Source of the DNA: Ignavibacteria bacterium
Lineage (GTDB): Bacteria > Bacteroidota > Ignavibacteria > Tepidaquicellales > Tepidaquicellaceae
Length of the DNA stretch: 64,000 bases
Direction of reading: 5' to 3'
NCBI GenBank assembly: GCA_036262055.1
Contig: DATAJP010000003.1
Coordinates: 1,039,001 to 1,103,000, forward strand
Under the pieces are notes generated by a model. That model searched no databases. It was not told the DNA's origin and saw only the letters and a program-made list of their open reading frames with translations. How positions within the stretch are numbered: the stretch's first letter is position 1; every line of letters begins with the position of its first letter. The position numbers and the translations under genes are program-made. This document shows, one piece after another, positions 34,385 to 56,711 of the stretch.

Positions 34385-34385
34385 A

Positions 34386-36025: not shown

Positions 36026-36387
36026 ATTAATGGATTTCTAAAAGTTAAATCAAAGAAAGTTAAAATTATCATCGTCAGAAATATTATAATACATACCGCA
36101 ATAAATACTTTAAATATGACCGTATCGAATTTTACATGCATGAAATAATTCATTACCATAACCGTTTTTATAACTGCAATCAACAGCGCTGCAATGATTG
36201 CAAGCGAACCAAGACTGATGCCTGAAAGTGTAACCGTAATTGCCGTTAATCCAACCAGCCCCAGCCATACCATAACATATGTTCCGTAACCAACGGAATG
36301 CTCTTCGTGAGCAAGATGCTCTTCTTCAGCTTTGAGACGATGCTCATCAATAATTTCAACCTGACTTGCTTTGAGTTCTGCTGACAT
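36022..36387 (-). CDS. Cytochrome c oxidase subunit IV (small subunit)
   Basis: 121 residues. Glu/His-rich N-terminus (about 1-33), then three helices. VIKTVMVMNYFMHVKFD is the hallmark of the prokaryotic COX4 family, which stabilises the caa3-type enzyme. Its position between subunits III and II agrees. Confidence 0.9.
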   Translation of the reverse strand: MSAELKASQVEIIDEHRLKAEEEHLAHEEHSVGYGTYVMVWLGLVGLTAITVTLSGISLGSLAIIAALLIAVIKTVMVMNYFMHVKFDTVIFKVFIAVCIIIFLTMIILTFFDLTFRNPLI

Positions 36388-36393
36388 AATATT

Positions 36394-37035
36394 TTAATGA
36401 ATTAAATAGAATAACGGGAACAGGAAAATCCAGATAATATCAACAAGGTGCCAGTATAATCCGGAATTTTCAAGTTTCTGTAAATTTGTTGACGTAATAT
36501 ATTTTTTATGTATAAACCACATAACAAAACCGATAAAAGCCATACCGACGATAACGTGCAGTCCGTGAAGCCCTGTCATTGTATAATAAAGTCCAAAGAA
36601 TACTCTTTCTCCCTGCGCCATGTCATCAAGAGCAGGACCATTCGGATAAATTCCGAGGTGAATTTTATGCGTCCACTCAAAATACTTATTAACCAGAAAC
36701 GCAAGACCGCAGACTTGCGTTATCCATAAATAAGTCATACAGAGCTTTGCATTATTTTTTGTTAAAGCAACAATGCCGAGAACGACGGTAAGACTGCTTG
36801 TTAAAAGAATGACAGTGTTCACTGCTCCCAAAATCGGGTCAAGCTCAAGAGCCGCTGCTTTAAAATCATTCGGATAAATATATCTGTATGATGCGTAAAG
36901 GATGAACATTCCTCCGAAAAGCAAAAGCTCGGTGAAAAGGAACAGCCATATTCCCATTTTTGAACCGACGTCATCGCGATGCGCATGCCCGCCTTCGTGA
37001 ACTTCATGAGCTAAAGTCTCGCTGTTATGGCTCAA
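36394..37035 (-). CDS. coxC: Cytochrome c oxidase subunit III
   Basis: 213 residues. Starts with a His-rich cytosolic tail and has five helices, as in the short bacterial form. Typical: GIWLFLFTELLLFGGMF, LTGLHGLHVIVG and YWHLVDIIWIFLFPLFYL. Overlaps coxA by 4 bases. Confidence 0.95.
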   Translation of the reverse strand: MSHNSETLAHEVHEGGHAHRDDVGSKMGIWLFLFTELLLFGGMFILYASYRYIYPNDFKAAALELDPILGAVNTVILLTSSLTVVLGIVALTKNNAKLCMTYLWITQVCGLAFLVNKYFEWTHKIHLGIYPNGPALDDMAQGERVFFGLYYTMTGLHGLHVIVGMAFIGFVMWFIHKKYITSTNLQKLENSGLYWHLVDIIWIFLFPLFYLIH

Positions 37036-38693: not shown

Positions 38694-38710
38694 AATTATT
38701 AAAACTAAAT

Positions 38711-39529
38711 TTATTTAAAATTCGGATTTACCGGAACACCAACATCTCCGGAATCAACCCGATTAATTTTCTTTTTCTTTTTTATGATAAAAAACACAAC
38801 AAATATTGCGAGCAAAAACAATGTTACTGCGCCGGCAATTCTTGTAACATCCAACACATACGTTCTTCCGACAGGGTCATAACTGTAGCATAGTTTCATA
38901 AGCTTCGAAATCGTAGCCCCTGTTCTTCCTTCGGAAGCTTCGGTTATTGCCATCTTAAAATCAAACGGATTATATTCAATCCCGTATAAATACCTTGCAA
39001 TTTTTCCTTCGGGAGACAGAACCATAATCGCTGCGCTGTGCGCATAATCATTTCCCTGCTTTAAATATTTCCAGCCGAGAGCATTGCATATTCTTGCAAT
39101 GTTAGCGCTGTCGCTTGTCAGGAATCTCCATCCGTTTTCATCAATCGGATTATTCATCGAAGCCAGATAATTTTTCTTTTTATCGTTAGCTAAGATATAA
39201 TCCTCACTCGGGTCAAAGCTGATTGTAACAACATTGTAATCCTTTCCGGGATATAAATCAACCATATCGACAACATCAGCAACTCCGTTCATCAACGGAC
39301 TGCAAATACCCGGACATCTGTAATAAACCATTGCAACAACAGTTGGCTTTCCGTTAAGAAGCTGACCCATTGTCACAGGCTTCCCGTATTCATCGAAAAA
39401 AGTTATATCTGAAGGAACAGTTTCACCTAACTTCTCGTCTATACCGACATCCGAAGGTGAAGGTTCGTCAGCAAAAACAATATTTACGCTGACAAATAAA
39501 ATCAATATATGTATTAAGAACTTATACAA
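38711..39529 (-). CDS. SCO1/SenC copper chaperone
   Basis: 272 residues. Signal peptide at 1-20, a thioredoxin-like domain with Cys72 and Cys76 in RCPGICSP and His164 in DYAHSAA, the copper ligands of Sco. A C-terminal transmembrane helix (about 228-250) and basic tail are present, an unusual position for the Sco anchor, which is N-terminal in most proteins. It supplies copper to CuA of subunit II. Located 17 bases from coxA. Confidence 0.92.
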   Translation of the reverse strand: MYKFLIHILILFVSVNIVFADEPSPSDVGIDEKLGETVPSDITFFDEYGKPVTMGQLLNGKPTVVAMVYYRCPGICSPLMNGVADVVDMVDLYPGKDYNVVTISFDPSEDYILANDKKKNYLASMNNPIDENGWRFLTSDSANIARICNALGWKYLKQGNDYAHSAAIMVLSPEGKIARYLYGIEYNPFDFKMAITEASEGRTGATISKLMKLCYSYDPVGRTYVLDVTRIAGAVTLFLLAIFVVFFIIKKKKKINRVDSGDVGVPVNPNFK

Positions 39530-39544
39530 AATTTACCTCTAAAA

Positions 39545-40621
39545 TTATTTTTTCGCAGTCGTATCTTTTGGCTGCGTGCTTGTTGTTGTGCCTGTTTTTG
39601 TCGTATCCGTGCCGGGTGTTAAATTAATAATGGTCGATGCGGAAACCGGAACAGGTGCAAACATATTATATTGGCTATATAAACCTTTTATATAGTTATA
39701 AACTCGTGTCCATTCATCAGGAGTAAGGGAGATTGCTTCAGGACGGAACCCGTTTTGAACGGGGTTTGTCATAATAAAATTAACAAATTCATTTTCATTT
39801 TCATTCCACTTCGAATTCCCCATCAAAGAGGTCAAAGCTTTATCCATATTTCTGACAATTCTCTTGAAAAGCTGTGCATCGGGATTATCTTTGTCATTAA
39901 CTATCTTTGACCTGACAGTATCCATCTTCAATTCATTTCCATTAACGTAATCAGCGACCATTCTTTCAATTGCCGATTCAACAGGAATCATATTCGGCTC
40001 AAGAGAACCTTTTGTCAAGTTATACATTGCATCCAGAGTCTGATAATCTGTTATCGTAGTATTCGGAATTGCCGGATTAAAATCTCTTATGTATTCTATT
40101 ATTGCAAGGCGGTCACTCGGCGGCAAATTGCTGTAAGAAGCCATTCCTCTTGTAGTAATGCCCTCTTGTAATGTTTTATACATTGCATCGATGGTATAGC
40201 CGTTTGTCCATCCTTCAAGCGAATGGAAATTTCTCGGTCTTGGATTAAGGTTAACTCCTGCAACACCGTCACCGTTACCCTGGTCACCATGACAGCTTGC
40301 ACAGTTAGTTACATATAATTCTCTGCCTCTGTCCAAAACCAGAGCGCCGGGGTTTACATATAATTTTACGTCAACTGGTGGCGATAAAGTTCCCCTCTTA
40401 AATACTTGCGGTGGTTTTGCCTTTGTCGTATCATAAACAGGAGGAGCAATTGACATCCTTGTTACATAATTTATATTCATAACATAAAATGCCCCGACTA
40501 CTACGAGTAAAGCAAGAATAAGTATGTAAAACACCCCATAAGCAGGCAGTGCTTTTCTGGCCTTTTCATAAAGGTCTAAATTCTCTTCTAAATTTTCTTT
40601 TATGTTAGGTAAATCACTCAT
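39545..40621 (-). CDS. Membrane-anchored monohaem cytochrome c
   Basis: 358 residues. One N-terminal helix (about 28-49) anchors a periplasmic cytochrome with CASCH at 107-111 (NCASCHGDQGNGDG), and a large C-terminal helical part. The Thr-rich tail (GTDTTKTGTTTSTQPKD) is disordered. I start at ATG 40621 (MSDLP); a longer frame begins 19 codons upstream, inside actF. Its placement between actF and sco/cox genes and the absence of a fused cytochrome in coxB make it a good candidate for the electron bridge from ACIII to the oxidase. Confidence 0.85.
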   Translation of the reverse strand: MSDLPNIKENLEENLDLYEKARKALPAYGVFYILILALLVVVGAFYVMNINYVTRMSIAPPVYDTTKAKPPQVFKRGTLSPPVDVKLYVNPGALVLDRGRELYVTNCASCHGDQGNGDGVAGVNLNPRPRNFHSLEGWTNGYTIDAMYKTLQEGITTRGMASYSNLPPSDRLAIIEYIRDFNPAIPNTTITDYQTLDAMYNLTKGSLEPNMIPVESAIERMVADYVNGNELKMDTVRSKIVNDKDNPDAQLFKRIVRNMDKALTSLMGNSKWNENENEFVNFIMTNPVQNGFRPEAISLTPDEWTRVYNYIKGLYSQYNMFAPVPVSASTIINLTPGTDTTKTGTTTSTQPKDTTAKK

Positions 40622-40631
40622 TTTATAAAAT

Positions 40632-41822
40632 TTAATACAAATGGAAATCCAAAGCGTTCTGAAGTTTCGGGTCGCCAACCGGAATTAAATTGGTTTTATT
40701 TGATTTCATCTTAAATGCTACCATGAACAAACCGACAGCAATAAGCGGAAATCCTATTTCAATCCATCCAAAAACAGGTCCGTGCATTCCGTGTGCATGT
40801 GTATAAGTCGGCATCACAAGCCAGTACATGTCAAGATAATGCGCTGCAAGCATCCATATAGACATAATTTTCAATTTCTGTAAATTTGTCTTCGTTGACC
40901 TCGGCAGTAAAATCAGGAACGGCAAAATAAAATGGAAAAACAGCAATCCGATGGAAACATATTTCCATCCGCCTTCCCATCTCATCGTGTACCAGAATGT
41001 TTCATCAGGAATATCTGCATACCACTGAAGAACAAACTGGGAAAAAGCAATGTAAGCCCAGAAAATAACGAATGCAAACATCATTGTACCCAGACTATAA
41101 AACTGGTCGTTCGAAATTCTCGGGTCAAGATATCCGTTTTGTTTTAAAAGAACTGCAATCAAAGTTAATGCTGCAAATGCAACACCAAGTGTTCCCGCAA
41201 AATAATAAACTCCGAACATTGTTGAATAATAATGCGGTTCAAGACTCATTACCAAATCAACTGCAAGAAAGGTAAGAGTTATTATAAACAACGGAGCAAA
41301 CAATGCCGAAAAAGCTACGCTTCGTCTTGTCAGCTTAGGGTCTCTTGTAACATCCTGTTTTTGAGAATTTCTTATAAATATAATAAAAAATATAATCCAG
41401 ATTATAAAATAAATTGCAAGTCGAATCAGGAAAAAGCTTGTATTCAGATAGGGTTCTTTTCCTTTTAAAATCGGGTCCGCCTCAACCGCATCGTGATGCG
41501 TCCAGTGATATAAAGTATGCATTCCCAATATAATCGGAATGACCAAAAGCACAAGAAGCGGCGTAACAGACGAAAGAAACTCGCTTATTCTTCTGAACGG
41601 CACGCTCCATGAAGCACCTACAAGATATTCCATTGCAACAAGCCCGAGGGAACCTATTGCGATGCTGACGATGAACATATACATAATTACATAATTGAAA
41701 TATGCCCTGTCAGGATTGAAAATAAACGAAGCTGCGGCAAGGATACCGCCAATTACAATCAATGCGATTCCAATTGAAAAAACTTTATTAGGAATTTTTT
41801 TATTTTCTATCTGAACTTCCAT
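40632..41822 (-). CDS. actF: Alternative complex III, subunit ActF
   Basis: 396 residues, about ten helices, NrfD/ActC-related. GMHTLYHWTHHDAV, MSLEPHYYSTMFGVYYFAG and HAHGMHGPVFGWIEIGFPL are ActF-type. ActF with ActC forms the membrane part that binds quinol. It is 43 bases downstream of the actDE gene. Confidence 0.9.
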   Translation of the reverse strand: MEVQIENKKIPNKVFSIGIALIVIGGILAAASFIFNPDRAYFNYVIMYMFIVSIAIGSLGLVAMEYLVGASWSVPFRRISEFLSSVTPLLVLLVIPIILGMHTLYHWTHHDAVEADPILKGKEPYLNTSFFLIRLAIYFIIWIIFFIIFIRNSQKQDVTRDPKLTRRSVAFSALFAPLFIITLTFLAVDLVMSLEPHYYSTMFGVYYFAGTLGVAFAALTLIAVLLKQNGYLDPRISNDQFYSLGTMMFAFVIFWAYIAFSQFVLQWYADIPDETFWYTMRWEGGWKYVSIGLLFFHFILPFLILLPRSTKTNLQKLKIMSIWMLAAHYLDMYWLVMPTYTHAHGMHGPVFGWIEIGFPLIAVGLFMVAFKMKSNKTNLIPVGDPKLQNALDFHLY

Positions 41823-41865
41823 TAATTAAATTTTCTTTTCTCTGTTATATCCTAACTGCAAATTA

Positions 41866-43068
41866 TTATTGCGGTAAATCAGAATCTTTTGCGTTTTGTG
41901 ACCTTTGCAATGCTCTTATATAATGAATGATTGCCCATCTGTCATCACGTGAAATCTGTTTCGTATAGCTCGGCATCGTATTTTGTCCGTTTGTAATTAC
42001 GTGATAAATATTTCCGTCAGCCCAGTTGCGAACTTTGTCGGTATGGAAAGACGGCGGATTAGGAAATTGTCCCCGCAATCTGCTGTCGCCTCTTCCGAAA
42101 TATCCGTGGCATGGACTGCAGTATGTATCATATCTTTTTTGTCCAGTCTGCATAACCTTTTCAGTAACAGGCAGAGGGTTTGCAAGAAGCTTTACCAATG
42201 AATCAGGCATTCCTGCATATTCATAAGGCATATATCCGCGAGCTACTGTTCCGGGAGGAGGAACTCTCATTCCAAAACCATCTGCAAAGAAAGTGCTTTT
42301 TTCCTGAGGAAGAACTTTTGCCTGATGCCACATCCAGTCAAAAGGCATCTGATAAATAAGCCAGTTCAAAGTAAAATATGTTCCGCCTGCAACTAATACT
42401 GCAAAGACAACTAAAACTTTTATAAAGCCTGCTGAAAAAATCGGGGTTTTAACTTTGTCTTCCTTAACCTTAGAGTCATATATACTATATATCTGTGTGC
42501 TTCCGAGTTCTCTGAATAAACTCTCAACCCGCTCTTTATTAAATTTTTTATCATTCGATTTTACATAAACACCATATTTATCCTGCGAGGTTGCCTTGAG
42601 ATAATCAGTTTCGAGCAGCGGATTATTAAACCATGGAAGCTTGCTGAAAAGCGCAATCAATGCGCCTGCAGTCATAAGACCGCAGAATAAAACCGTAAGC
42701 TCAAACGTAACAGGCATCGACGGAGGAATATTGAAATACGGCTTGCCTCCTACTATGTTTGTATAATCAACACCTGACATCCATCCTATCATAGCAAGAG
42801 CAGATATCGTTCCGGTTATGCCGAGTGTAAAGCTGAACCATCCGAGTTTTGTCGGCTTCAGCTTCATTGCATCATCCATTCCGTGAACGGGATAGGGGGT
42901 ATTTACATCGAACTGTGTATATTCAGAAGAAACTTTTTTCGCTGCCGCAATAATCTGGTTTGGCGTATCAAACAACGCACCAACAGCATACACCTTATCC
43001 GACTTTTCTTCCTCGGGCAAAGGTGATTCGTTAATCTTCCTGAATTTTTCTAAATACTTTTTAATCAT
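41866..43068 (-). CDS. actDE: Alternative complex III, ActD-ActE fusion
   Basis: 400 residues. Residues about 25-200 are the DUF3341/ActD domain: AVGALFDTPNQIIAAAKKV..., two helices, FWNNPL-like NNPLLETDY, and a C-terminal part. Residues about 205-400 are ActE: a helix (about 212-232), ADGFGMRVPPPGTVARGY, and a monohaem cytochrome c with CSPCH at 317-321 and Met365 in NTMPSY. In Rhodothermus these are two proteins (established). Here one reading frame without interruption covers both. The haem would take electrons from ActB. Confidence 0.92.
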   Translation of the reverse strand: MIKKYLEKFRKINESPLPEEEKSDKVYAVGALFDTPNQIIAAAKKVSSEYTQFDVNTPYPVHGMDDAMKLKPTKLGWFSFTLGITGTISALAMIGWMSGVDYTNIVGGKPYFNIPPSMPVTFELTVLFCGLMTAGALIALFSKLPWFNNPLLETDYLKATSQDKYGVYVKSNDKKFNKERVESLFRELGSTQIYSIYDSKVKEDKVKTPIFSAGFIKVLVVFAVLVAGGTYFTLNWLIYQMPFDWMWHQAKVLPQEKSTFFADGFGMRVPPPGTVARGYMPYEYAGMPDSLVKLLANPLPVTEKVMQTGQKRYDTYCSPCHGYFGRGDSRLRGQFPNPPSFHTDKVRNWADGNIYHVITNGQNTMPSYTKQISRDDRWAIIHYIRALQRSQNAKDSDLPQ

Positions 43069-43097
43069 CTTATCTTAAAGACAAACTAAACTTTATA

Positions 43098-44470
<1,373 letters not shown>

Positions 44471-44474
<4 letters not shown>

Positions 44475-47400
44475 TTTCTTTCCTCCATTGTTTCTTCTAT
44501 GTTTCTTAACTTCGCAATGTAAGTAACGTTTGGTTTTACCTTAATCGGCTCAAGCACATAATATGCAAGAGGGTGTTCCCGATACGCCTGAATCTTATCT
44601 GTTTTATCATTCATATTTCCGAAAGTTATTGCATTGGTCGAGCAGGCATCCTGGCATGCGGTTGTAACGTCGCTTCCCAATACTTCTCTTCCCTGCTGAA
44701 TTGCAACTTGTCTTGCTTTCATAATTCTCTGAACGCAGAATGTGCATTTTTCCATAACCCCTCTTGAACGAACCGTTACTTCAGGGTTTGCAGCAAGAGC
44801 AAATGACGGCTCTTCCTGATATCCATCTTTAAATCTGTTTCTGAAATTGAAATAATTAAATCTTCTTACTTTATAAGGGCAGTTGTTGCTGCAATATCTC
44901 GTACCTACGCATCTGTTATAAGTCATTCCGTTAATTCCGTCCTCGCTGTGTGTGGTTGCAAGAACAGGACAAACATTCTCGCACGGAGCAAAATCACAAT
45001 GCTGGCAAAGCATCGGTTGAAAATTAGCATTTGGTGCTTCAGGTGTTCCGGAATAATATCTGTCAATTCTTAACCAGGTCATCTCGCGATTTCTGCCGAC
45101 TTGCTCTTTTCCTACAACGGGAATATTATTTTCGACATTGCAGGCAGCTACACATTCGCCGCAGCCAATACATTTGTTAAGGTCGATTGCCATTGCCCAT
45201 TTTGTCGGACCTTGATAATACTTATTCGTATTTCTCGGGTCAGTCGGATTTTCAGCATTGATACTTGGATTGATACTTGGATATTGCTCAAGAGGAATAC
45301 CCTCAAAACTTTGCTTTGCAGTAATTGACTGTGGGTTTTTCTTATATTGATTATAAGTTCCTTCCTGAATTATTAACCTTTTGAATTGAATGTCTTTATA
45401 TTGCGGATTATCAATCGGGTAATGCTCCTGAGTAGAAATAAGCTCGTATGTTCCTGCAGCTTTTGTTACAGCCGCGTTATTATAAAAATATGCGCTCAGC
45501 GCAGGTGATTTTGAAATAACAGGATATACATTTACACCGACTTCAGTTCCCACCGTTCCGGCAACCGTTCTTCCATAACCCAATTCTGTTGAAATCACAT
45601 TATCATCCATTCCCGGTTGAACCATAACAGGAAGCTGTAAGTTTTTTCCGTTGATGCTTATATCAATTAAATCATTCATATCAACACCGAGCGACTTAGC
45701 CATGTTCGGTGAAACGGCAGCATAGTTATCCCATACAACTCTTGAAATAGGATGAGGCAGTTCCTGAAGCCATCCGTTATTTGCAAATGAACCGTCAGCG
45801 CCGATAAACGGACTTGCAGTGAACAACATAATAGAAGTGCTCGACGGCGTTAATCTTTTTTGAATTCCCGTGAATGCACCCTGATTCATCGGAGCAAGTG
45901 TAGCAAGAGGTTGGTTGGTCATCACAAATCCATCGTGCAAAGCTCCGAACCAGTATTCGTTAAACTTAACTTTTGAACCTATTGCAGGATGAATAGTTGT
46001 CTGCCAGTTATTCTTTATATAATTTGAATAAATATCATTGTTATATGTCTGAGCGCTTCCATTAATCCAGTTTAATATCACCCCTTCTTTTTGGCGTGTA
46101 TTATATAGAGGAGCAATCACAGGCTGCTGAACAGAATAAAACCCAACTCTTCCTCTGTAATCTCCCCAGCTTTCAAAATCCGAATTAACCGGAAGCACAT
46201 AATTGCTTGACGCCGATGTTTCGCTGTCTATTAATGTGAACGTAATTACACTCTGCGCTTTCTTCATTGCATCGGCATAACCGAAATCACCCGGAAGATT
46301 ATATACAGGGTTAACATCAAGATGAATTAACACCGCAACGTTGCCGCTGTTTAAATCACTGACAAGATTATTTATGTCAGATGACATGAACGGAGGCAAT
46401 TCTTCTTCGTAGTTATCGAGTATGTATAAATTTCTGTTTCCTAAAACTTCATTGAGCAGGTTAACCGTGATGTGTGTTGATTCAGGAAGTGAATCGCCAG
46501 CAGTTACAAACGATGCTCCCGGATTCTTTGCAAGGTCGTTGACTAAATTCGAAATTACCTTTGCATCAACATTATATTTCTGCGCAAACTGATTTAAGTT
46601 ATAACCTGAAACCGCTCCTGACGCACCTGCATCCATTGCGAACGTTCCCGATAATCTTCCTGAAAGCTCTTTTATCAGACACAAAGCTAATTCTTCTATT
46701 GCATCGGTTCTCAATCTTATTCTATAATCTGCATTCATTCCCGTTATGGAAACATTTCCTTCAACTGCATATAATCTATTGAAACTGTCACCGTTGATTA
46801 CTTCACGGTTTTGAACAAATCTTCTTGCGTTCTCGATTTTGTTTGCATCATTGCCAAGAAAATCCGATTCAAGCGCAAGGATTACTTTTGCATCTTCATA
46901 TTTAATTGTCGGATAAGCTTTATTGCCGTAGCACTTGAACCACGCGCTGTTCTTATTCGACATATTCGCTGTGTCGTATGTATAAACTTTTGCGGTCGGA
47001 TATTTTGCCTGAAATTCAGTTAAAACTTTTTTGAATGTCGGTGAATAAACCGGGTTTGCAACGATTGCAATTTCTTTTCCTGATGATGCTGCTTTGTTTA
47101 ACAAGCCGATAACCTGAGTATCAACGTCCTGCCATTGCATATCGGCAAATGAGTTTCTGTCCGAAGCAAACTTTGGATTCTGAATTCTATCAGGGTCATA
47201 TACATTTAATATGCTTGCCTGAGTTCTTGCATCTATTTTTCCTTTGCTCACGGGATGTTCAGGATTGCCGTCAACTTTTATCGGTCTTCCCTCACGGGTT
47301 TTCACAAGAACACCAACTGGCATTCCGCCGATTATGAACGTTGATGCATAATAATTAGGATTACCCTCGACAATTTCTTCAGGTTTTTTATTATAGGGAA

Positions 47401-47722
47401 TGATTTCACCTTTGTCTCTGTAATTAGAGCATCCCGCTGCAGCGAATGCTGCGGAAGCGGCAAGCAAGCCGAGGAATTTTCTTCGTGATAAACCGCTGAA
47501 AGCACCCTCATCAAGCGGCTTGTTAGCATCTTTATCAAACTCAAGATTCTTAGCTCTGATAAATTCAGGGTCATTATGAAGCTCGCGGAATGAACGCCAA
47601 TAATGAGCGTCCTTATCGCCCACTTTTACTTCGTGACCGTTTTTAACTTCGGTATGATTGATTTTTTCGTCTTCTTTTATAATCTCGGAACTCAAATCTA
47701 TGTAATTTTTATCTTTACCCAT
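44471..47722 (-). CDS. actB: Alternative complex III, subunit ActB (MopB fused to iron-sulfur protein)
   Basis: 1083 residues. An N-terminal extension (1-77) precedes a Tat signal with SRRKFLGLLAASAAF (79-93) and a lipobox at Cys98. Then a molybdopterin-oxidoreductase-like domain (about 100-760) without a readable Mo site, and a ferredoxin part (about 820-1050) with CIGCGECVAAC, CQHCDFAPCENVC, CVGTRYCSNNC and CTFCVQR...ACQDAC, four clusters. ActB passes electrons from quinol to haems. The signal in the middle of the N-terminus is the TAT-variant type in ACIII. TatC is encoded at 24540. Confidence 0.95.
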
Positions 47723-47936
47723 TCTGCTGTCCCGGTTTTATTGTTCTTTTAACAGCAAGCGGATTGATTTCAACCTTAATAGGCGAAGCTTTTACTGCCG
47801 TCTTGTTATTTCTTGACTGAAAAATTTTGAAGGGTAATTTAGATAATCCGAATACTCCCATAACCGAAACCCCAAAATATAAAAAGAATTTCTTCCTTTT
47901 TATTTTCTGCGGCTTACTTACTGATTTGTTTTCCAT
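47715..47936 (-). CDS. Small membrane protein between actA and actB
   Basis: 73 residues. One hydrophobic helix (about 17-33) between basic flanks KIKRKKFF and KIFQSRNNKT. No motif I recognise. It overlaps the actB start by 8 bases and follows actA by 57 bases, so it is certainly in the operon. It might be a small accessory subunit of ACIII, since the same slot in other ACIII operons is usually empty (from memory). Confidence 0.6.
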   Translation of the reverse strand: MENKSVSKPQKIKRKKFFLYFGVSVMGVFGLSKLPFKIFQSRNNKTAVKASPIKVEINPLAVKRTIKPGQQNG

Positions 47937-47993
47937 TAGGATGTAAAAGTCTTTACTATACTATTAAATAAATATATAAATCTGTTTTTTCTT

Positions 47994-48575
47994 CTACCTA
48001 TGACAAGCTGAACAATACTGAGGACCTTTTTTCAAGTTATCCTTAATAAGCTGAAACTCTGCTATATTATTCTGTGGATTTCTGTGGCAATCAAGACATG
48101 CTGCCATTGTGAATGAATTTACCTGCGCAATCTTTTCCATATTTTTTACATCACCATGACAGTTTGCGCAATCAATGCCTTTATTTACGTGAACGCTGTG
48201 ATTGAAATAAACAAAATCAGGAACTCTGTGGATTCTTTTCCACGGGATAGGCTTGCCTTCCTCATAATATTGAGTAAGTTTCTGAATTTCAGGTCTGTCT
48301 TTTCTTGCAAGCGTGTGACAATTCATACACACATCTGCTGAAGGAACATTAGCAAAGCTCGATTTCTCAACATTTGTGTGACAATATTTGCAATCAATCT
48401 GCATATCTCCTGCATGAAGCTTATGTGAATATAAAATCGGCTGGTCGGGTTGATATCCGATTCCATTTCTTTCCGCAAATGATGTATAATATGTGATTGT
48501 AAATACCGCCGCGGCAGTAAAGAGAATGATAGGAAGTCTGACTTTAAGGTTGTAGTCGAGAAGAAATCTTTTCAT
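47994..48575 (-). CDS. actA: Alternative complex III, subunit ActA, pentahaem cytochrome c
   Basis: 193 residues. One N-terminal helix (about 12-30). Five CxxCH sites: CKYCH, CMNCH, CANCH, CLDCH and CSACH, as for ActA. Additional His in LYSHKLHAGD and YFNHSVHVNKG are sixth ligands. It is the first gene of the operon; on the minus strand TAATTTTG stands at 48604-48597, a possible -7 element, but no clear -33 box accompanies it. Confidence 0.93.
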   Translation of the reverse strand: MKRFLLDYNLKVRLPIILFTAAAVFTITYYTSFAERNGIGYQPDQPILYSHKLHAGDMQIDCKYCHTNVEKSSFANVPSADVCMNCHTLARKDRPEIQKLTQYYEEGKPIPWKRIHRVPDFVYFNHSVHVNKGIDCANCHGDVKNMEKIAQVNSFTMAACLDCHRNPQNNIAEFQLIKDNLKKGPQYCSACHR

Positions 48576-50171: not shown

Positions 50172-50372
50172 TTGAATACAGTAAAAGCAAATTTAAAGTG
50201 CCCCGAGTGTAACAACATCACCCAGGAAACAATCCCTGATAATTGTTGTGTTTTCTTCTTTGAGTGTAAAAATTGTAATAAAATATTTAAGCCTTTAAAA
50301 AATGATTGTTGTGTGTTTTGCAGCTATTCAGATAAAAAATGTAAGTATGCTCAAAACTGTTGTGCAAACTGA
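50172..50372 (+). CDS. Small Cys-rich zinc-ribbon-like protein (GDCCVFCSY type)
   Basis: 66 residues with 12 Cys. CPECN and CKNCN form a zinc-ribbon-like pair, then NDCCVFCSYSDKKC and a final NCC. Small proteins with a GDCCV[FI]C[SA]Y motif are known next to heavy-metal transporters, without a determined function (from memory). The start is a TTG at 50172; no ATG is available upstream of CPEC. It faces the CDF-like transporter gene and is the first gene of the metal island. Confidence 0.7.
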   Translation: MNTVKANLKCPECNNITQETIPDNCCVFFFECKNCNKIFKPLKNDCCVFCSYSDKKCKYAQNCCAN

Positions 50373-50397
50373 TTTATCAGAGTATTTGTAATGCTCA

Positions 50398-51051
50398 TTA
50401 TGAGCAGCAATCAATTCCTTTAGCTTTTTGGAAGCATTCGCGTCCTTCAGTGACTGCAAAATAAACAATACCGAGCGTTCCCAACGCATCGATGTAGCCG
50501 ATTCCTGTTAATTCATATATAAAACTCGACACAAGCAAAACAATCGACATATAAATACAGGCACGAGTGCAATTTGAGTCTGCAAGAATCGGCTTTGAGT
50601 TAAGCTCTCTTCCGACTTTGTTTTTCCATAACATCAAAATTACCATTACTACAATAGAGATAAGCGAAATTACGACTCCCCAAAAAGTTGTTTCGGGTTT
50701 TCTGCCTTCAATTAAATTTGCAGCAGCGCCAACGAGCAATCCCGCAGATAAAATATAAAATGCTACTCCTGTTATTTTCAGTGCAGTAACTTCAAACGGT
50801 CCTTTATGGCTTTTCGGATTGTTACGCATTCTTAAAATCATCACTGCAATGCCGACACCCGACAAGCTTTCTATGAAGCTGTCAACTCCAAACCCGAACA
50901 GCGCTAAGCTGTCATCCTGATAACCCAAATAAGTGGAAATTATTCCTTCGGCAATGTTATAAAAAATCGTGAACAAGCTGAGATAAAAGGCGATGTTATA
51001 TAACTTGTCGTGACGTGATATACTTTCAGGTATGGAATTAGAAATTTGCAT
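50398..51051 (-). CDS. Cation-diffusion-facilitator-like transporter, short form
   Basis: 217 residues, about six helices. GFGVDSFIESLSGVGIAVMILRMR in the second span and ADSNCTRACIYMSIVL in the fifth correspond to the CDF metal sites, but the usual His/Asp quartet is altered and Cys is present in the second (NCTRAC). No cytoplasmic C-terminal domain; it ends IDCCS. Likely exports or imports a soft metal. Lies between the Cys-rich 66-residue protein and the TonB receptor. Confidence 0.72.
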   Translation of the reverse strand: MQISNSIPESISRHDKLYNIAFYLSLFTIFYNIAEGIISTYLGYQDDSLALFGFGVDSFIESLSGVGIAVMILRMRNNPKSHKGPFEVTALKITGVAFYILSAGLLVGAAANLIEGRKPETTFWGVVISLISIVVMVILMLWKNKVGRELNSKPILADSNCTRACIYMSIVLLVSSFIYELTGIGYIDALGTLGIVYFAVTEGRECFQKAKGIDCCS

Positions 51052-51062
51052 ATTGCAAAGAC

Positions 51063-51122
51063 GGGATTCTTCGCTTCGCTCAGAATGACATAAAAATATT
51101 CCCCCTTAGTAAATAAAGGGGG
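51063..51122. repeat. Dispersed repeat half and adjacent CCCCCTT hairpin
   Basis: GGGATTCTTCGC...AGAATGAC at 51063-51089, half of the dispersed element, followed by CCCCCTT...AAGGGGG (51101-51122), a 7-bp hairpin. The second could terminate the TonB receptor gene on the minus strand, though its T run is broken. Confidence 0.65.
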
Positions 51123-51141
51123 AAAAAGGGGGTGTTAAAAT

Positions 51142-53367
51142 TTAGTTCAGCTTAAACCTTGCGCCGACATAAAACTCTCTTCCCTTTGTCGGACCCCAGT
51201 TAAAGCTCGTATCAAAATATTGACCGAAAGGATTTTCTGCGCTGATAATAGGATTTGACTGTTTGTAATTCAAAATATTTTCAACCCCGGAATAAATTTC
51301 ATAATTTGAAATCCTGAAAGTAAGCTGCGAATTTATCATTCCGAATGCATCCGAATAATCCGGTCGCTGATATTGCACCGGGTTATCTTTTGTCGAAGGC
51401 AGTCTTTGTTTCCCAAAATACTGCGCGCTTCCTGAAAACATCCACATTTTTCCGGGAGTTTCATAGGTTAAGCTGAAAAGTCCTCTGTGCTTTGCATTAA
51501 ATGGCATTTCATTTTTGACACCGTTCTTAAAATAATAAACATCGAGATAATTATAGCTTAACTTTCCGTCAAACTCTTCTGAAATGTTAAATGTGATTTC
51601 ACTCTGGAAACTGTTTGATACTGAAGACTCACTGCTATTATAAAATATAACTTGTCCGGGAACTTCATCATAATCCGCAACAAACTGGTCTGTGAAAGTC
51701 GTTCTGTAAAAATCCAAAGCTACATCAAAATCAATTTCATCAATCACGATTTCTCTTGTTAAGCTCACTCCCCAGTTAATGGATTTTTCACCTTTTATGA
51801 ATTGCGGGAATATTATGTCTTTACCCGTTGCAAACAAATTTTGATTTTCTGCAAAAAGCTTTGGAGTTCTGAACCCGCTTCCGACCGAACCTCGTAAAAC
51901 GGTCTGCTCATCAATTCCGTATTTAAACATAAATCTCGGAGTCAAAATAGTCCCGTAATTACTATTAAAATCAACTCTCACTCCCGGTACCAAGTCAAGC
52001 TTCTCATGAATCACTTCAAATTTATTTTCAGCAAACAAACCCGGAATGCTTTCCTCAAACTTATAGCTTCCGTTATAAGTTTTTGAATACGGATTTTCAC
52101 TAAATAAAATATCTTCGTTTAAGTCCTGATGTCTGTAATTAAATCCTACTTTTAAATTACTATGCTCCAAATAAAAATAATCAAATAGCACATTAACATA
52201 TAAATCTCTCTGAAACGCATTATAGTCAGTCAATCCGAATATTGAACGTTGCCTGTGGTCACTCCAGCCAATCTGAGCAACGATTGAATTCTCACTCCCT
52301 AGTCTTTTGTTAAGTCGTCCTGTAAATTCATTTCTTATTGTTTTAATTGTCTGTCCATAAATCCCGCTCGTTGCATTATCTTCATTAAAGTTTTTTTGTC
52401 CGCCGATTCTTTTTTCATCAAGATACCTGAACGCGACGTTTCCGCTCCATTCATTATCTTCAGGATTACCGACATTCCATCTGTTATAAAATGAGTATCT
52501 TGTAATTAAAGGAAGATCAAGAAATCCATCATCATTATTATCAATGCGGTTTGCTTTCTGTACGGAATGAAAAGCAAGCAAAGCAGAAATCATTTTATCG
52601 AATTTCTGTTTGCCGTTTACGTTGATGTGTTTTTCAAGATAGCTGTTAGTATATGCATTTAAGAAAAATTTATCGCTCGACTCGGGTTCTTTCATTATAA
52701 CGTTTATGATACCACTTATAGATTCATAACCCTGCAAAACAGAATTGGAACCTTTTGCAACAGTAATTGCATTGATCATCGTTCCCGAAATGGAGCTTAA
52801 ACCATATACAGATGAAAGACCGTTGAGCAAAGGGATGCCTTCCTTAAGCGTTAATGTATAAACACCGTCCGTTCCGAGAAGCTTCAAGTCCTTACTGTCG
52901 GTAACGACATCGGATACGCTTACTTCTATATTTCCGCTTGTCCCGAAACATCCGCTTAAGTCGCAGCACGCTGCTTTTTCCAAATCGTGCTGGTCTATTG
53001 CTTCGGTTTTTTCAATTTTTTCTTTTGCTAAATCTTTATCTGACTTATCCTTTACAACTATTTCACCGGTTTGGTAATCGCGCAGTCTTATTATTTTATA
53101 CTTTTCATTTGTTATCGCAACCGTATCGGTAAAATATCCTGACAATCTAATAACAAGACGCTTATCTGCAATATCCTGCGTAGTAATTTCAAACTTTCCT
53201 TCAATGTCAGATACCGCAAATATTTCAGTATTAATCCATTGAATCCTTGCATCCGGCAAAACTTCTTTTTCATCCGATGCGAGGACAACTTTTCCTTTTA
53301 AGGTCTGTGCCTGAACACCGGCAGAAATAAATAAAAATAATAATATGTATAAAATTTTTGTTTTCAT
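51142..53367 (-). CDS. TonB-dependent outer-membrane receptor, probable metal receptor
   Basis: 741 residues. Signal peptide at 1-20 (VQAQ), carboxypeptidase-like regulatory domain (about 22-100), plug (about 125-235) and 22-strand barrel. The plug starts with LEKAACCDLSGCFGTSGNIEVS, with Cys134, 135 and 140. A KAACC-x-LS motif at this site occurs in receptors next to HMA proteins in Bacteroidetes (from memory) and suggests metal capture. The neighbours, CDF-like, HMA and YHS proteins, support metal. Ends in a barrel strand VGARFKLN. Confidence 0.88.
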   Translation of the reverse strand: MKTKILYILLFLFISAGVQAQTLKGKVVLASDEKEVLPDARIQWINTEIFAVSDIEGKFEITTQDIADKRLVIRLSGYFTDTVAITNEKYKIIRLRDYQTGEIVVKDKSDKDLAKEKIEKTEAIDQHDLEKAACCDLSGCFGTSGNIEVSVSDVVTDSKDLKLLGTDGVYTLTLKEGIPLLNGLSSVYGLSSISGTMINAITVAKGSNSVLQGYESISGIINVIMKEPESSDKFFLNAYTNSYLEKHINVNGKQKFDKMISALLAFHSVQKANRIDNNDDGFLDLPLITRYSFYNRWNVGNPEDNEWSGNVAFRYLDEKRIGGQKNFNEDNATSGIYGQTIKTIRNEFTGRLNKRLGSENSIVAQIGWSDHRQRSIFGLTDYNAFQRDLYVNVLFDYFYLEHSNLKVGFNYRHQDLNEDILFSENPYSKTYNGSYKFEESIPGLFAENKFEVIHEKLDLVPGVRVDFNSNYGTILTPRFMFKYGIDEQTVLRGSVGSGFRTPKLFAENQNLFATGKDIIFPQFIKGEKSINWGVSLTREIVIDEIDFDVALDFYRTTFTDQFVADYDEVPGQVIFYNSSESSVSNSFQSEITFNISEEFDGKLSYNYLDVYYFKNGVKNEMPFNAKHRGLFSLTYETPGKMWMFSGSAQYFGKQRLPSTKDNPVQYQRPDYSDAFGMINSQLTFRISNYEIYSGVENILNYKQSNPIISAENPFGQYFDTSFNWGPTKGREFYVGARFKLN

Positions 53368-53376
53368 TTTATTAAA

Positions 53377-53430
53377 ATTCCCGCAATGCCAAACTGCAAT
53401 AAAATAATTCCACTATTTTATCAGCAGCAT
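53377..53430 (-). repeat. 3' module shared with the T9SS gene at 48789
   Basis: On the minus strand the final codons and 45 bases of trailer of the gene at 53413 repeat the sequence at 50101-50162. Hairpin ATAAAATA/TATTTTAT with flanking CTG/CAG at 53394-53424. The TonB receptor gene starts 10 bases further on. Confidence 0.6.
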
Positions 53431-55059
53431 TTTTTTTGTTTCGCTAAAATTGTTTGTTTTAAGTTCATAAAAATAAACCCCGCTTGAATAATTTGATGCA
53501 TCCCAACTAACTTTATATGCTCCTGCGTTTAGTTGCTCATTTACTAAAACAGCTAACTCTTTTCCTGACATATCATATATAATTAATTTCACATTTGACG
53601 TTTCACGTTTGACGTTTGACGGAACATAAAATTCTATATTAGTAGAGGGATTAAACGGGTTCGGATAATTCTGTTTCAATAAGAATTTATCCGGAATATT
53701 ATTTGAAATATTTTCAACACTTACATTTTGTGAATACTTTAGGGTTGCAAAATCATAATCCGTTCCGGGATTAAAGCTGATGCCCGTTACAAATAAATCA
53801 TTTCTGTTATTTATTCTCACGGCATAAACAAAATCTTCAGGGTTCGGTGCGTGGTGATAAATATCCTGCCATAGCAAATTTCCTGCGGGACTGTATTTTA
53901 GAATTTTGTAAGCTAATTTTATTCCGCCAATATCCGCCGCACCGCCTACATATACATTGTTAAAAGCATCAGTCGTAATGCTCATTCCCTGGTCAATACC
54001 GTTGGAATCAGAATTCCAGATTCTGTTCCACAGTAAATCACCGTTTGGACTGTATTTCAATGTTACAATGTCTTCCGTTCCGAGCGAATCACCGTGACGG
54101 CTGCTGCCTGTTACCAAAATATTATTTTGAGTATCAACACAAACATCAAAAGGAAAATCATAATGATTGCCAGAGCCGTTAAAAATTTTTAACCAATTAT
54201 GATTTGATATTGAAATACTGTCGCACTTTATCACCATAAAGTTCACACTACCTAAAGAATCCGGGTGTACTACGCTTGTAAGATATATGAGATTTTTATA
54301 ATTATCGGTTATTAATTTTATTAATTTACTTGGAGTTTCATAACCTAAAAAGCCATTGGAACTCCCATCTAAGTTATATCTTAAAAATCCAACGGTTGTA
54401 ATGTTAGTTGAATAAGTTATATTACAACCAACCGTAATCTTAGAAGAGCCATTTACAACAAGATTGATGCCCTCATAATTATTCTGTCCGCTGCCCGCAC
54501 TTTTATCCCATTGAAAAACTCCTCCGGAATTGTAACACCAGAGAAACATTTCATTATATCCTGATGCGTTACGTCCGTTGCCGGTTACATATACTCTATC
54601 ATTATATAGAGCGATATCGGAACCGACAAAATTAGAATAATTAACTTTTGTAAATATCTTTGACCAATTCAGATTCCCCGTTCCGTCAACTTTCAATGTA
54701 ATCATCTTGTTATCACTTCCGCCTTCAGTCGTGAAACCGCATATATAAGAATTATTCATTTCATCCTTATAAACTGCACGCGTTTGGTCATAGCTGTTCT
54801 CACCAAAATTAAATTTTTTATTCCATACTATTCCGCCCGAAGAGTTATATTTAACAACTGTAATATCGGTTGCTGTGCCTGTATTAAAGGAAGTGCCGTA
54901 AACAAAAACGTTTCCGCTGTCATCAGGAATAATGTCGCAGACTATGTCATAACTGTTTGCGGTGCCGTTATATCTCTGCACCCAGTCGCGATTTATCTGC
55001 GCGTAAACGGATGAAGCAATAAAAAGTAATGTTAATGTAATGAGTAAAAGTTTTTTCAT
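53413..55059 (-). CDS. Secreted SBBP-repeat beta-propeller with T9SS sorting domain
   Basis: 548 residues. Signal peptide at 1-20. Repeats of the SBBP type: GNVFVYGTSFNTGTATDITVVKYNSSG, NNILVTGSSRHGD, FNNVYVGGAADIGG, DLFVTGISFNPGTDYDFATLKYS. The sorting domain starts at about 462 with NYPNPFNPSTNIEFYV and carries an extra loop SNVKRETSNVK, coded by four 7-bp tandem units (53594-53621), and ends KKMLLIK. The function is unknown; placed in the metal island between the TonB and HMA genes. Confidence 0.86.
   Translation of the reverse strand: MKKLLLITLTLLFIASSVYAQINRDWVQRYNGTANSYDIVCDIIPDDSGNVFVYGTSFNTGTATDITVVKYNSSGGIVWNKKFNFGENSYDQTRAVYKDEMNNSYICGFTTEGGSDNKMITLKVDGTGNLNWSKIFTKVNYSNFVGSDIALYNDRVYVTGNGRNASGYNEMFLWCYNSGGVFQWDKSAGSGQNNYEGINLVVNGSSKITVGCNITYSTNITTVGFLRYNLDGSSNGFLGYETPSKLIKLITDNYKNLIYLTSVVHPDSLGSVNFMVIKCDSISISNHNWLKIFNGSGNHYDFPFDVCVDTQNNILVTGSSRHGDSLGTEDIVTLKYSPNGDLLWNRIWNSDSNGIDQGMSITTDAFNNVYVGGAADIGGIKLAYKILKYSPAGNLLWQDIYHHAPNPEDFVYAVRINNRNDLFVTGISFNPGTDYDFATLKYSQNVSVENISNNIPDKFLLKQNYPNPFNPSTNIEFYVPSNVKRETSNVKLIIYDMSGKELAVLVNEQLNAGAYKVSWDASNYSSGVYFYELKTNNFSETKKMLLIK
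53594..53621. repeat. Four 7-bp tandem units inside a T9SS sorting domain
   Basis: Plus strand units TTTGACG, TTTCACG, TTTGACG, TTTGACG. As the unit is not a multiple of three, the four copies are read in different frames and code SNVKRETSNVK. Confidence 0.75.
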
Positions 55060-55067
55060 AAAAAAAT

Positions 55068-55089
55068 AAAACCGGCTTGCACCGGTTTT
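55068..55089 (-). terminator. Terminator after the HMA protein gene
   Basis: AAAACCGG-CTTGCA-CCGGTTTT, 8-bp stem extended by A/T pairs, T run on the minus strand. Lies between the HMA gene and the SBBP gene, separating the two units. Confidence 0.9.
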
Positions 55090-55110
55090 ATTTTAGTTAA
55101 TATTAAGAGT

Positions 55111-55572
55111 TTATATTTTCTTAGCCGAAATAACATTAACGGATTTTCCCGAAACATTTACCATGCCGGTAATATTTAACTCGTCACCGTCTTTGTAATC
55201 TCCATTCAGGTTTTTAATCATCAAATCGGGTGTATTCCCGGTTACAAGTTTGAACCCACCGTTGTTATCCGACACAATTTTTCCCGATGCAATTATCTTA
55301 ATGTCGCGCAAAGTAAAACCGCCGTCATTTATTGCATCTGCAATGCTTGAGATTACTATATTAGAGCCTGTCTTAAATGTAAGGTCAAAAGTAGTTGCTT
55401 TTATGTTTGTCTTAACTGATTTCACAAAGTCGAGAGATTTCAATTCTCCCTCTACTCCCTTAGCGCAAAGCGAGCACGTAAAGCCGTCAACGCCTACCGT
55501 TGCTTTGGTAACCTGTGCGCTTGCAATGCCGGTTGTCAGGAAAAGGATTATTATAAATATTAATTTTTTCAT
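55111..55572 (-). CDS. Secreted heavy-metal-associated (HMA) protein
   Basis: 153 residues. Signal peptide at 1-19 (ASAQ). HMA domain at about 21-90 with Cys33 and Cys36 in GFTCSLCAKGVE, which bind Cu(I) or Zn. The C-terminal part (about 90-153) is a small beta domain with DGDELNITGMVNVSGKSVNVIS, OB-like. It would be a periplasmic metal carrier, probably partner of the TonB receptor with the CC motif. Confidence 0.85.
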   Translation of the reverse strand: MKKLIFIIILFLTTGIASAQVTKATVGVDGFTCSLCAKGVEGELKSLDFVKSVKTNIKATTFDLTFKTGSNIVISSIADAINDGGFTLRDIKIIASGKIVSDNNGGFKLVTGNTPDLMIKNLNGDYKDGDELNITGMVNVSGKSVNVISAKKI

Positions 55573-55594
55573 TTTATGATTATGTAGAAACCAC

Positions 55595-55614
55595 CCGCAT
55601 GAAATTATGCGGGC
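55595..55614 (-). terminator. Hairpin after the Cys-rich YHS gene
   Basis: CCCGCAT-GAAATT-ATGCGGG, 7 bp, with two more G-C pairs outside one mismatch (55592-55617). Read on the minus strand it is followed by GGTTTCT, a weak T run. Confidence 0.6.
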
Positions 55615-55637
55615 GGCTTAGGATTAATTATTTAATT

Positions 55638-56213
55638 TTAATGATGACCTTCATGTTTGCTTTCTTTTTCAACGCTTCCATTCATGTATTTTTCAGGGTT
55701 TGCTTTGAACTTGTCATCACATCCTGCGCAGCAGAAATAATATTTCACACCGTCAACAACCGTTGAGACATCTTTTTTTGCAGCGCCTTCCATAACAGGA
55801 CATTGAATTTCATCTTTCAAATAATTCATGGGCTCGGCTTTGAATTCTTCAATGCATCCCGCGCAGCAAAATTTATATTCTTTGCCGAGATAAGTGAATC
55901 CTACGCCTTTGCCGCTTTCAAGCGGCTCTCCAGATACCATGCAGATAGCAGAATCAGGGCTCATTGTTTCAATTCCTTGTGAAGTTCCGTCTGAATTATG
56001 CGGCATTGAACAATTTGAAGATGTACAGCAAGATGAACAATCTGCGCAGTTTTCGCAATTTCCTTGAGAACAGCAATTCCCGCAATCAGTACATACACAT
56101 TGAGCGCAGCAGCATGAATTTATATACTCAACTTTTGCATTTGAATTATTTACAAATGATAAAGTTGCAATTGCAATGAATGCAATCAACGATAAAAATA
56201 TTTTCTTTTTCAT
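55638..56213 (-). CDS. Exported Cys-rich protein with two YHS/TRASH-like domains
   Basis: 191 residues. Signal peptide at 1-26. Residues 34-68 hold 14 Cys (34, 35, 36, 39, 41, 44, 47, 48, 53, 56, 59, 62, 63, 68), metallothionein-like. Two YHS/TRASH-like domains follow: CMVSGEPLESG...YKFCCAGCIEEFKAEP (91-128) and CPVMEGA...YYFCCAGCDDKFKANP (138-173). The end KHEGHH is His-rich. YHS domains bind metals such as copper. I infer a periplasmic metal buffer. Follows the CC-rich small protein gene in the same direction. Confidence 0.85.
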   Translation of the reverse strand: MKKKIFLSLIAFIAIATLSFVNNSNAKVEYINSCCCAQCVCTDCGNCCSQGNCENCADCSSCCTSSNCSMPHNSDGTSQGIETMSPDSAICMVSGEPLESGKGVGFTYLGKEYKFCCAGCIEEFKAEPMNYLKDEIQCPVMEGAAKKDVSTVVDGVKYYFCCAGCDDKFKANPEKYMNGSVEKESKHEGHH

Positions 56214-56249
56214 TATATGTTTTTATTAAAATTTAAAATTATAATATGC

Positions 56250-56273
56250 CGGATAATCTAATTGAATTATCCG
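56250..56273. other. Inverted repeat between the two Cys-rich genes
   Basis: CGGATAAT (56250-56257) and ATTATCCG (56266-56273), an 8-bp perfect stem with an 8-base loop. Could be a weak terminator for the gene at 56301-56711 or an operator before the YHS gene. Confidence 0.45.
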
Positions 56274-56300
56274 TTATTAAAAATTGAAAAGGAAAATTTT

Positions 56301-56711
56301 TTAAATTCTGAGATTAGCATTCAGGATGTTTATATCCTGTTTGATGAGAGGAATTTGTGATGTTTGTAAATTAAGTTCAGCGGTAAAAATATTCTGTGTA
56401 TTTATTTCCGACTGAACATACTGGTGATCCTGGATAAGTTGATTTGAAGCAACGGTAATGGGCGGTAAGGAATTATCGATTGGCTGCCCCTGAGTAATAC
56501 AACATCCGCAATCGCTGCGAATCAGTTCGGCATTATCATTTGTGTTAAGATTTTTATTATCGTGACAGCAGCATCCTTCTTCAATATTTTGTTCCATCTG
56601 ACTTGAACACACATATTGTGCAATTACAATAGTGTTGCTCGAAAGCAGAGTTAATAATAAAACAATTGAAACAACTCTCAGAGATAATATTTTAAATATA
56701 TTCTTTACCAC
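56301..56711 (-). CDS. Small exported CC-rich protein, HYC_CC_PP-like
   Basis: 136 residues. Signal peptide up to about residue 31 (VIAQ). YVCSSQ, GCCCHDN, DCGCC and NSLPP follow the order Y-C ... CC ... PP seen in small Bacteroidetes proteins of the HYC_CC_PP type, often found next to copper genes (from memory). The start is a GTG at 56711; no ATG is available before the signal peptide. Function unknown, metal binding inferred. Confidence 0.6.
   Translation of the reverse strand: MVKNIFKILSLRVVSIVLLLTLLSSNTIVIAQYVCSSQMEQNIEEGCCCHDNKNLNTNDNAELIRSDCGCCITQGQPIDNSLPPITVASNQLIQDHQYVQSEINTQNIFTAELNLQTSQIPLIKQDINILNANLRI

Follow-up and report, generated by a model that had tools for sequence, protein, structure and literature searches.

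A Candidate Metal-Uptake Cassette Headed by a Putative Cysteine-Rich Leader Gene in Bacteroidota and Ignavibacteria

Introduction

Genes for a TonB-dependent receptor with a CC motif, a secreted HMA protein, a double-YHS protein, a CDF-like transporter and two small Cys-rich proteins lie within 6.5 kb in an Ignavibacteria bacterium with a genome of 2.87 Mb. This arrangement raises the question of whether the genes constitute a single metal-handling unit and, if not, which of them belong together, in which direction the metal moves, and which metal it is. The original prediction, made from the letters of the DNA alone, had treated the six families as one island, possibly for acquisition or detoxification, in which a metal is handed over outside the inner membrane by the receptor, HMA and YHS proteins. 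Here, we describe the analysis of the 64,000-nucleotide stretch of DNA that contains the locus (referred to as the window), which is part of contig C3.

Small exported proteins encoded ahead of metal-related genes have been described in other phyla. In Bordetella pertussis, a TonB receptor operon begins with the gene for CruR, an exported DUF2946 protein whose CXXC and C-terminal RAPP motifs, 45 residues apart, mediate copper control (PMC9426467). Homologues of CruR have been reported in the alpha-, beta- and gammaproteobacteria, and a few in Planctomycetes, Firmicutes and Deinococcus (PMC9426467). The receptor encoded with CruR, CrtA(BfrG), brings in copper for haem-copper oxidases (PMC12914433). 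CutF of Rhodobacter capsulatus works via an RNA stem that spans the start of the following gene (PMC9973294). A later paper noted that a direct demonstration of arrest by CruR or CutF was lacking (PMC10987492). In Bacteroidota, copper uptake and envelope copper sensing appear to be little described in the texts available; for one flavobacterium, a different receptor was proposed from sequence as an OprC-like copper importer (PMC11213822). A search of titles and abstract openings in the open-licence literature found no paper on the cassette described below, and no paper using the family name HYC_CC_PP was found in that literature.

Materials and Methods

Conservation was assessed in a phylum sample of 198 genomes, 72 of which had a receptor match at 1e-40. 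A total of 104 receptor loci were examined, 14 of them from a search of the same family; two further loci (L179 and L220) yielded no receptor ORF. Genes were called with a simple procedure that takes the longest ORFs, so that start positions are approximate. A genome scan added 80 named Bacteroidota and Ignavibacteria loci out of at least 585 encoding a receptor relative. Four rows were removed before the leader statistics were calculated: the thioredoxin-like L242, the spurious L291, and L112 and L227, whose ORFs were unrelated or spurious. The 20 HYC_CC_PP places away from receptors were taken from the top of the match list. The RNA structure comparison was repeated with stricter controls, on 84 leader loci, 18 Cus-type loci and 137 control gaps.

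Results and Discussion

Organization of the Locus

All of the ORFs named in the original prediction are present at the locus, as confirmed by ORF calls and by Pfam and NCBIfam searches. A predicted operon of five genes lies on the minus strand, from 56711 to 51142; the genes encode, in 5' to 3' order, a small Cys-rich secreted protein, the double-YHS protein, the secreted HMA protein, a T9SS-type protein, and the TonB receptor with the CC motif (Table 1). The T9SS-type protein, 548 residues long and of the beta-propeller type, sits inside the run and was missing from the earlier gene list. A divergent gene (56930, plus strand) precedes the first gene of the operon. The only known RNA element found between 48500 and 58800 was a tRNA.

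Table 1. Features of the locus, in window coordinates.
Feature	Position	Strand	Remarks
GDCCVxC-domain small protein	50172..50372	+	Convergent neighbour, judged outside the cassette
Half-length CDF-like transporter	50398..51051	-	Neighbour, judged outside the cassette
Intrinsic terminator-like hairpin and T tail 3' of the receptor gene	51099..51124	-	Taken as the operon end
TonB-dependent receptor, CCDL(S/A)GCF type	51142..53367	-	741 aa; proposed outer-membrane metal importer
T9SS-sorted SBBP/delta-60 repeat surface protein	53413..55059	-	47% identity to the nearest relative's copy at the same place
13-bp terminator-like hairpin between the HMA and T9SS-protein genes	55063..55094		
Secreted HMA protein (CxxC) with extra C-terminal five-strand domain	55111..55572	-	Proposed periplasmic metallochaperone
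Secreted double YHS/TRASH protein with Cys-rich linker	55638..56213	-	191 aa, 22 Cys; proposed periplasmic metal carrier
Leader-YHS gap, 87 nt	56214..56300	-	MFE pairing of the post-stop stretch with the YHS start region, plus an inner hairpin
Small secreted Cys-rich protein, operon gene 1	56301..56711	-	136 aa, GTG start, C-terminus -NANLRI; proposed metal-sensing leader

The CDF-like protein (217 residues) matched PF01545 at 50.9 bits (cut-off 26.6) and failed the TIGR01297 superfamily cut-off (44.6 versus 82.35 bits). Its gene was found in 40 of the 198 genomes at 1e-20. Twenty loci were fetched, and the gene was solitary in nearly all of those inspected (no CDF was reported at L119 and L123); the CDF and receptor genes were never together in five genomes that have both and were compared by place (G035, G049, G093, G172 and G186). 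The GDCCVxC protein matched NF041374 at 67.9 bits (cut-off 40) and had counterparts in 56 of the 198 genomes. Its settings, inspected at 30 loci, were typically near ATPases and HMA-containing transporters, which on our reading resemble MerTP, and in the genome of the window a second copy is flanked by genes for a P-type ATPase and a CusA-type protein. The idea of six families forming one island was therefore rejected: the CDF-like gene is solitary in relatives and lies behind the terminator, and GDCCVxC genes accompany other genes elsewhere.

As a separate observation, the CDF-like gene (L118 to L136) is a widespread stand-alone gene that in a few loci sits beside a CopA-type ATPase (L134) or an apparent arsenic methyltransferase and ArsR pair (L132).

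Conservation of the Cassette

The remaining genes presented a different picture in the phylum sample. A Cys-rich ORF was found within 1 kb upstream on the same strand of 39 of the 45 receptors with the ACC motif (38 without L112), and at these 45 loci a separate HMA gene was present in 27 cases and a YHS gene in one. The corresponding numbers for 45 motif-free receptors were four (three without the spurious L227) for the Cys-rich ORF and zero for an HMA or YHS gene standing apart from the receptor. The three motif-free receptors with such an ORF (L172, L173 and L234) are 887–900 residues long and have an N-terminal part with the CC tail typical of HMA-protein ends, so that, from their sequences, they look like HMA–receptor fusions. 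The arrangement was not universal: seven of the 45 CC-type loci in the phylum sample had no recognised leader, and 17 had no HMA or YHS gene within 1 kb.

The named loci gave a similar result. Among the 77 that were off contig edges, a leader ORF was found at 59 (57 without L242 and L291), an HMA gene at 53 and a YHS gene at two, and the HMA match lay inside the receptor itself at four of the 80. Apparent N-terminal HMA–receptor fusions of 840–900 residues were seen by motif at L172, L173 and L234 and by profile at L269, L305, L310 and L316.

Within the family of the window genome, the receptor was present in 15 of 29 genomes, counting the window's own. At the 14 CC-like loci outside the window, a small Cys-rich ORF was found upstream in 13 and a YHS neighbour in 10; one of the 14 had an altered motif, PSCDLAGCF. 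From these loci, it follows that either a YHS or an HMA protein can serve as the receptor's partner in place of the other. The nearest relative, in which the receptor is 59% identical, has the small ORF and the YHS, HMA, T9SS-type and receptor genes in the same order as the window, beside the same complex III genes, and the CDF gene does not adjoin. The T9SS-type gene may be a chance insert, since SBBP-like proteins are common in these genomes, but the nearest relative has retained it in the same position.

Taken together, a Cys-rich ORF, an HMA (or YHS) gene and a CC-motif receptor gene almost certainly constitute a conserved cassette of Bacteroidota and Ignavibacteria. Co-occurrence in other genomes, on which the original prediction had staked its six families, thus goes beyond chance for these three components and fails for the CDF and GDCCVxC genes.

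The motif-free receptors had their own surroundings. A DtxR-like regulator gene was found beside 24 of the 47 receptors without the CC motif and beside none of the 57 CC receptors, and an NRAMP gene beside eight of the 47 and none of the 57. DtxR-like, NRAMP and thioredoxin-like neighbours were seen at L184, L188, L199, L213 and other motif-free loci, which represent a second metal-receptor setting, perhaps for Mn or Fe.

Proteins of the Window Operon

The receptor carries the sequence AACCDLSGCF at the start of the plug. Its plug and beta-barrel were both above the Pfam cut-offs (PF07715, 25.7 bits against 23.9; PF00593, 81.8 bits against 27). The structure model (pLDDT 88.7) retrieved general TonB receptors in a fold search, with BtuB and Cir as the nearest solved folds and OprC at rank 34; this search gives no pointer to copper and is of no use for choosing the metal. 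The fold is shared with OprC of Pseudomonas aeruginosa (PMC8610252), but TIGR01778, which PMC9426467 gives as the signature of OprC-type receptors, was absent from the 13 NCBIfam families that the receptor matched with E values up to 1.

The HMA protein matched PF00403 at 29.8 bits (cut-off 24.8), and C33 and C36 of its CxxC motif are invariant in the alignment of relatives. Its best profile hits were of the CopZ type, with weaker ones to MerP and ZntA, and a fold search with the model (residues 19–98 only) gave matches to Cu(I) HMA folds among the 50 matches listed. The YHS protein matched PF04945 at 55 bits (cut-off 30.3) in two stretches. The five-strand domain at the C-terminus of the window HMA protein stands where relatives carry a CC tail; among the loci read, a full-length HMA protein of this kind was seen in the nearest relative only.

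The Leader ORF and Its Relatives

The original prediction had also noted the absence of a metal sensor, and this part of it may be wrong: the small Cys-rich product of the first gene is the best candidate for such a sensor and probably acts as one. The window protein itself had no Pfam match and no NCBIfam family at E up to 1, which includes HYC_CC_PP (NF047658, cut-off 28 bits). At the same E limit, that profile picked up 27 of the 41 leaders aligned, and matches to it were found in 58 of the 198 genomes of the phylum sample. Away from receptors, 18 of 20 HYC_CC_PP ORFs were followed, 70–128 nt downstream, by CusA-type operons. One ORF type that stands ahead of both efflux and uptake genes suggests control rather than a shared chaperone.

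The leaders have a characteristic C-terminal layout. The distance from the last CC to a PP motif had a median of 55 residues and was within three residues of this value in 75 of 87 leaders, while the distance from the first C to the last CC varied, only 33 of 87 falling within three residues. A subtype ends in WQPPxxx-stop, with the PP 4–5 residues from the end; the spacing from CxxxxC to PP was 54 or 55 in the six members with that motif. The RNA from the leader end to the next start was more structured than control gaps, with a median z of -2.89 (84 loci) and -3.41 (18 Cus-type loci), compared to -0.33 for 137 same-strand gaps (p 6e-14 and 2e-7, respectively; as the loci are related, these p-values overstate the difference). 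The earlier comparison, in which the control set held doubtful ORFs, had given medians of -2.61 and -0.77 for 99 loci each. Pairing of the start region was also higher, with a mean of 5.24 expected pairs in 99 leaders versus 2.65 in 408 controls. At least five such pairs were found in 43% of leaders and 21% of controls, and many leader loci are without this pairing. Common descent and plain attenuator hairpins could equally accommodate both the fixed spacing and the structured RNA.

An alternative in which the small protein is a working periplasmic metal-binding buffer or chaperone for uptake receptors and Cus pumps, and no regulator at all, would account for the hydrophobic, signal-like N-terminus (at least 10 of 14 residues in 117 of the 129 small Cys-rich proteins), the many cysteines and the location beside metal transporter genes. 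A protein with that role would need neither a conserved C-terminus, a fixed Cys–PP spacing, a structured gap nor a place before transporter genes, and the aligned sequences show little conservation beyond three Cys and one Pro. We consider the buffer or chaperone role rather unlikely, and control of the cassette by the leader is, by a modest degree, the better bet.

The window leader has no PP in its last 45 residues, and it ends in LRI instead. Leaders of the same family mostly end in (L/F)RI with differing codons; the last two residues are RI, LI or II in each of the 13 listed, and the codons for them change synonymously. The stop codon was TAG in nine of these 13, compared to 15 of 104 other genes, although the loci are related, and across all leaders the TAG bias was not significant (30 of 110 versus 139 of 716, p 0.07), so that it holds in the window's family only. 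The gap RNA at the window had a z of -2.4, and the bases just 3' of the leader stop can pair with the YHS start region (9.8 expected pairs, against the control mean given above). Stalling at LRI-stop in the window operon is a doubtful proposition. A same-strand gene was found less than 100 bp before the leader in 31 of the 104 leaders with a known neighbour, and leaders thus need not be first in the transcript.

Comparison with Known Leaders

The arrangement resembles the CruR–CrtA(BfrG)–PepSY operon in that a small exported protein with a Cys motif is encoded upstream of a TonB receptor gene with a gap behind it; in the window, the receptor gene lies downstream of the leader ORF in one predicted operon, as gene order in the CruR case would have it. 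A second likeness is the C-terminal PP motif at a fixed distance from the cysteines, 45 residues in CruR and about 55 in the relatives described here. The differences are that the leaders here are not DUF2946 by profile and the window leader lacks PP, that the partner is an HMA or YHS protein instead of PepSY_TM, and that the gap is 87 nt and structured, whereas in the CruR operon it is 162 nt and Rho is involved. Since it fails both the DUF2946 profile and the PP test, the window leader is not a CruR.

Similarly, the CutF group shares the exported leader with a Cys motif, a terminal proline motif and an RNA stem over the next start, and CutF-like leaders head RND and TonB operons. CutF itself differs in that it controls a multicopper oxidase and belongs to DUF2946, and the accessible part of PMC9973294 names no Bacteroidota leader family. 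HYC_CC_PP has the same genomic place and the same Cys/PP layout as the leaders described here, but the window member fails its profile, and the family name carries no function.

PF11162 (DUF2946) was absent among the 25 Pfam families listed for 41 leaders, and DUF2946 was above the cut-off in only two of the 198 genomes. The same logic would thus be realised here in another protein family. We tentatively propose, with somewhat less than even confidence, that Bacteroidota and Ignavibacteria have phylum-wide exported, metal-sensing nascent-chain leaders that are unrelated in sequence to DUF2946, that one leader type controls both Cus-type efflux and CC-motif TonB uptake, and that the leaders fall into three or more end types, each stalling at a site of its own: a PP some 17 residues before the C-terminus, WQPPxxx-stop, or LRI-stop, where the TAG preference would point to stalling at termination. 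If true, this would make the functionless family HYC_CC_PP a metal sensor, open to testing, that serves uptake as well as efflux across a large phylum, and would represent a convergent invention of nascent-chain metal sensing.

Direction of Transport

The outer-membrane metal route that the original prediction had sketched, in which a CC receptor works with HMA and YHS proteins, draws support from the phylum-wide neighbourhood, the interchange of HMA and YHS proteins, and the putative HMA–receptor fusions. The same prediction had pointed to the lack of a P-type ATPase and CusA, which is correct within the 6.5 kb and incorrect for the genome as a whole: there are six PF00122 places, and another contig carries a Cus-like and a Czc-like island, at G000:C2:1028000-1047900 (L097) and 1105000-1124900 (L098), respectively. 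Each of these islands begins with a small Cys-rich ORF, separated from the gene that follows by 77 and 82 nt, respectively, and the ORF on the Czc side ends in SPPVSPPPKS. The L097 island holds the second GDCCVxC copy and the L098 island a YHS protein like that of the window.

These islands bear on whether the cassette could serve detoxification, with the receptor exporting or sensing the metal and the YHS and HMA proteins sequestering it. The window YHS protein is 49% identical over 92 residues to the one beside the Czc-type island, and in one relative a CzcA gene lies behind the receptor (L113), as might be expected for such a role. TonB receptors import, the genome already has two separate islands of the Cus/Czc type, and most cassettes stand alone, all of which argues against detoxification, and we regard it as improbable. 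Metal uptake is probably the function of the cassette. This would provide a concrete, testable function for CC-motif TonB receptors, which occur in hundreds of genomes, a relative being encoded at no fewer than 585 loci.

Metal Identity

Copper is favoured by the CopZ-like HMA protein and its matches to Cu(I) HMA folds, the Cus operons under the same leader family, and the SCO1–oxidase operon of the window, where alternative complex III, ActD, SCO1, COX1 and COX2 genes form one run beside the cassette (33029–48575). A COX1 match was found in all 15 of the receptor-bearing genomes of the same family, and the four genomes without COX1 were also without the receptor; COX1 is near universal (188 of 198 genomes), however, and this co-occurrence is therefore given little weight.

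The substrate might instead be a metallophore, for instance a complex of iron or cobalamin, or one of the metals Zn, Cd, Hg and Ni. Binding of Zn, Cd and Hg by HMA domains is established, and the MerP and ZntA hits of the HMA protein, the likeness of the receptor fold to BtuB and Cir, and the pairing of CCDLAGCF receptors with an HMA protein lacking CxxC (L101 and L102) would all agree with a metal other than copper. Such a substrate fits less well with the CusA-type operons headed by the same leader family and with the adjoining SCO1–oxidase operon, and the complex III genes recur in the nearest relative. We therefore judge another metal to be unlikely, and copper to be the reasonably likely substrate.

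The operon may take up a thiophilic metal, most likely copper, under the control of a Cys-rich leader, a combined reading to which we give an even chance. The receptor would carry the metal, whether free or bound to a chelator, through the outer membrane; the CC pair of the plug and the HMA or YHS protein would receive it in the periplasm, and it would supply cuproenzymes such as the neighbouring cytochrome oxidase. The product of the first gene would act as the leader, its Cys cluster reading the metal during synthesis and export. Metal reading would alter the exit of the ribosome from the conserved C-terminus, which is -LRI-stop in the family of the window genome and carries PP in the majority of relatives. 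The position of the ribosome would in turn open or close the gap RNA structure over the start codon of the following gene, much as in CruR and CutF of Proteobacteria.

Elsewhere in the window, a duplicated pair of near-identical small lipoproteins (GCGGGPSPEQMQQLNDLRAEVESLQ...) is encoded at 10801–11067 and 18192–18437, and behind each lies a gene for a larger secreted protein, the two larger proteins again being similar.
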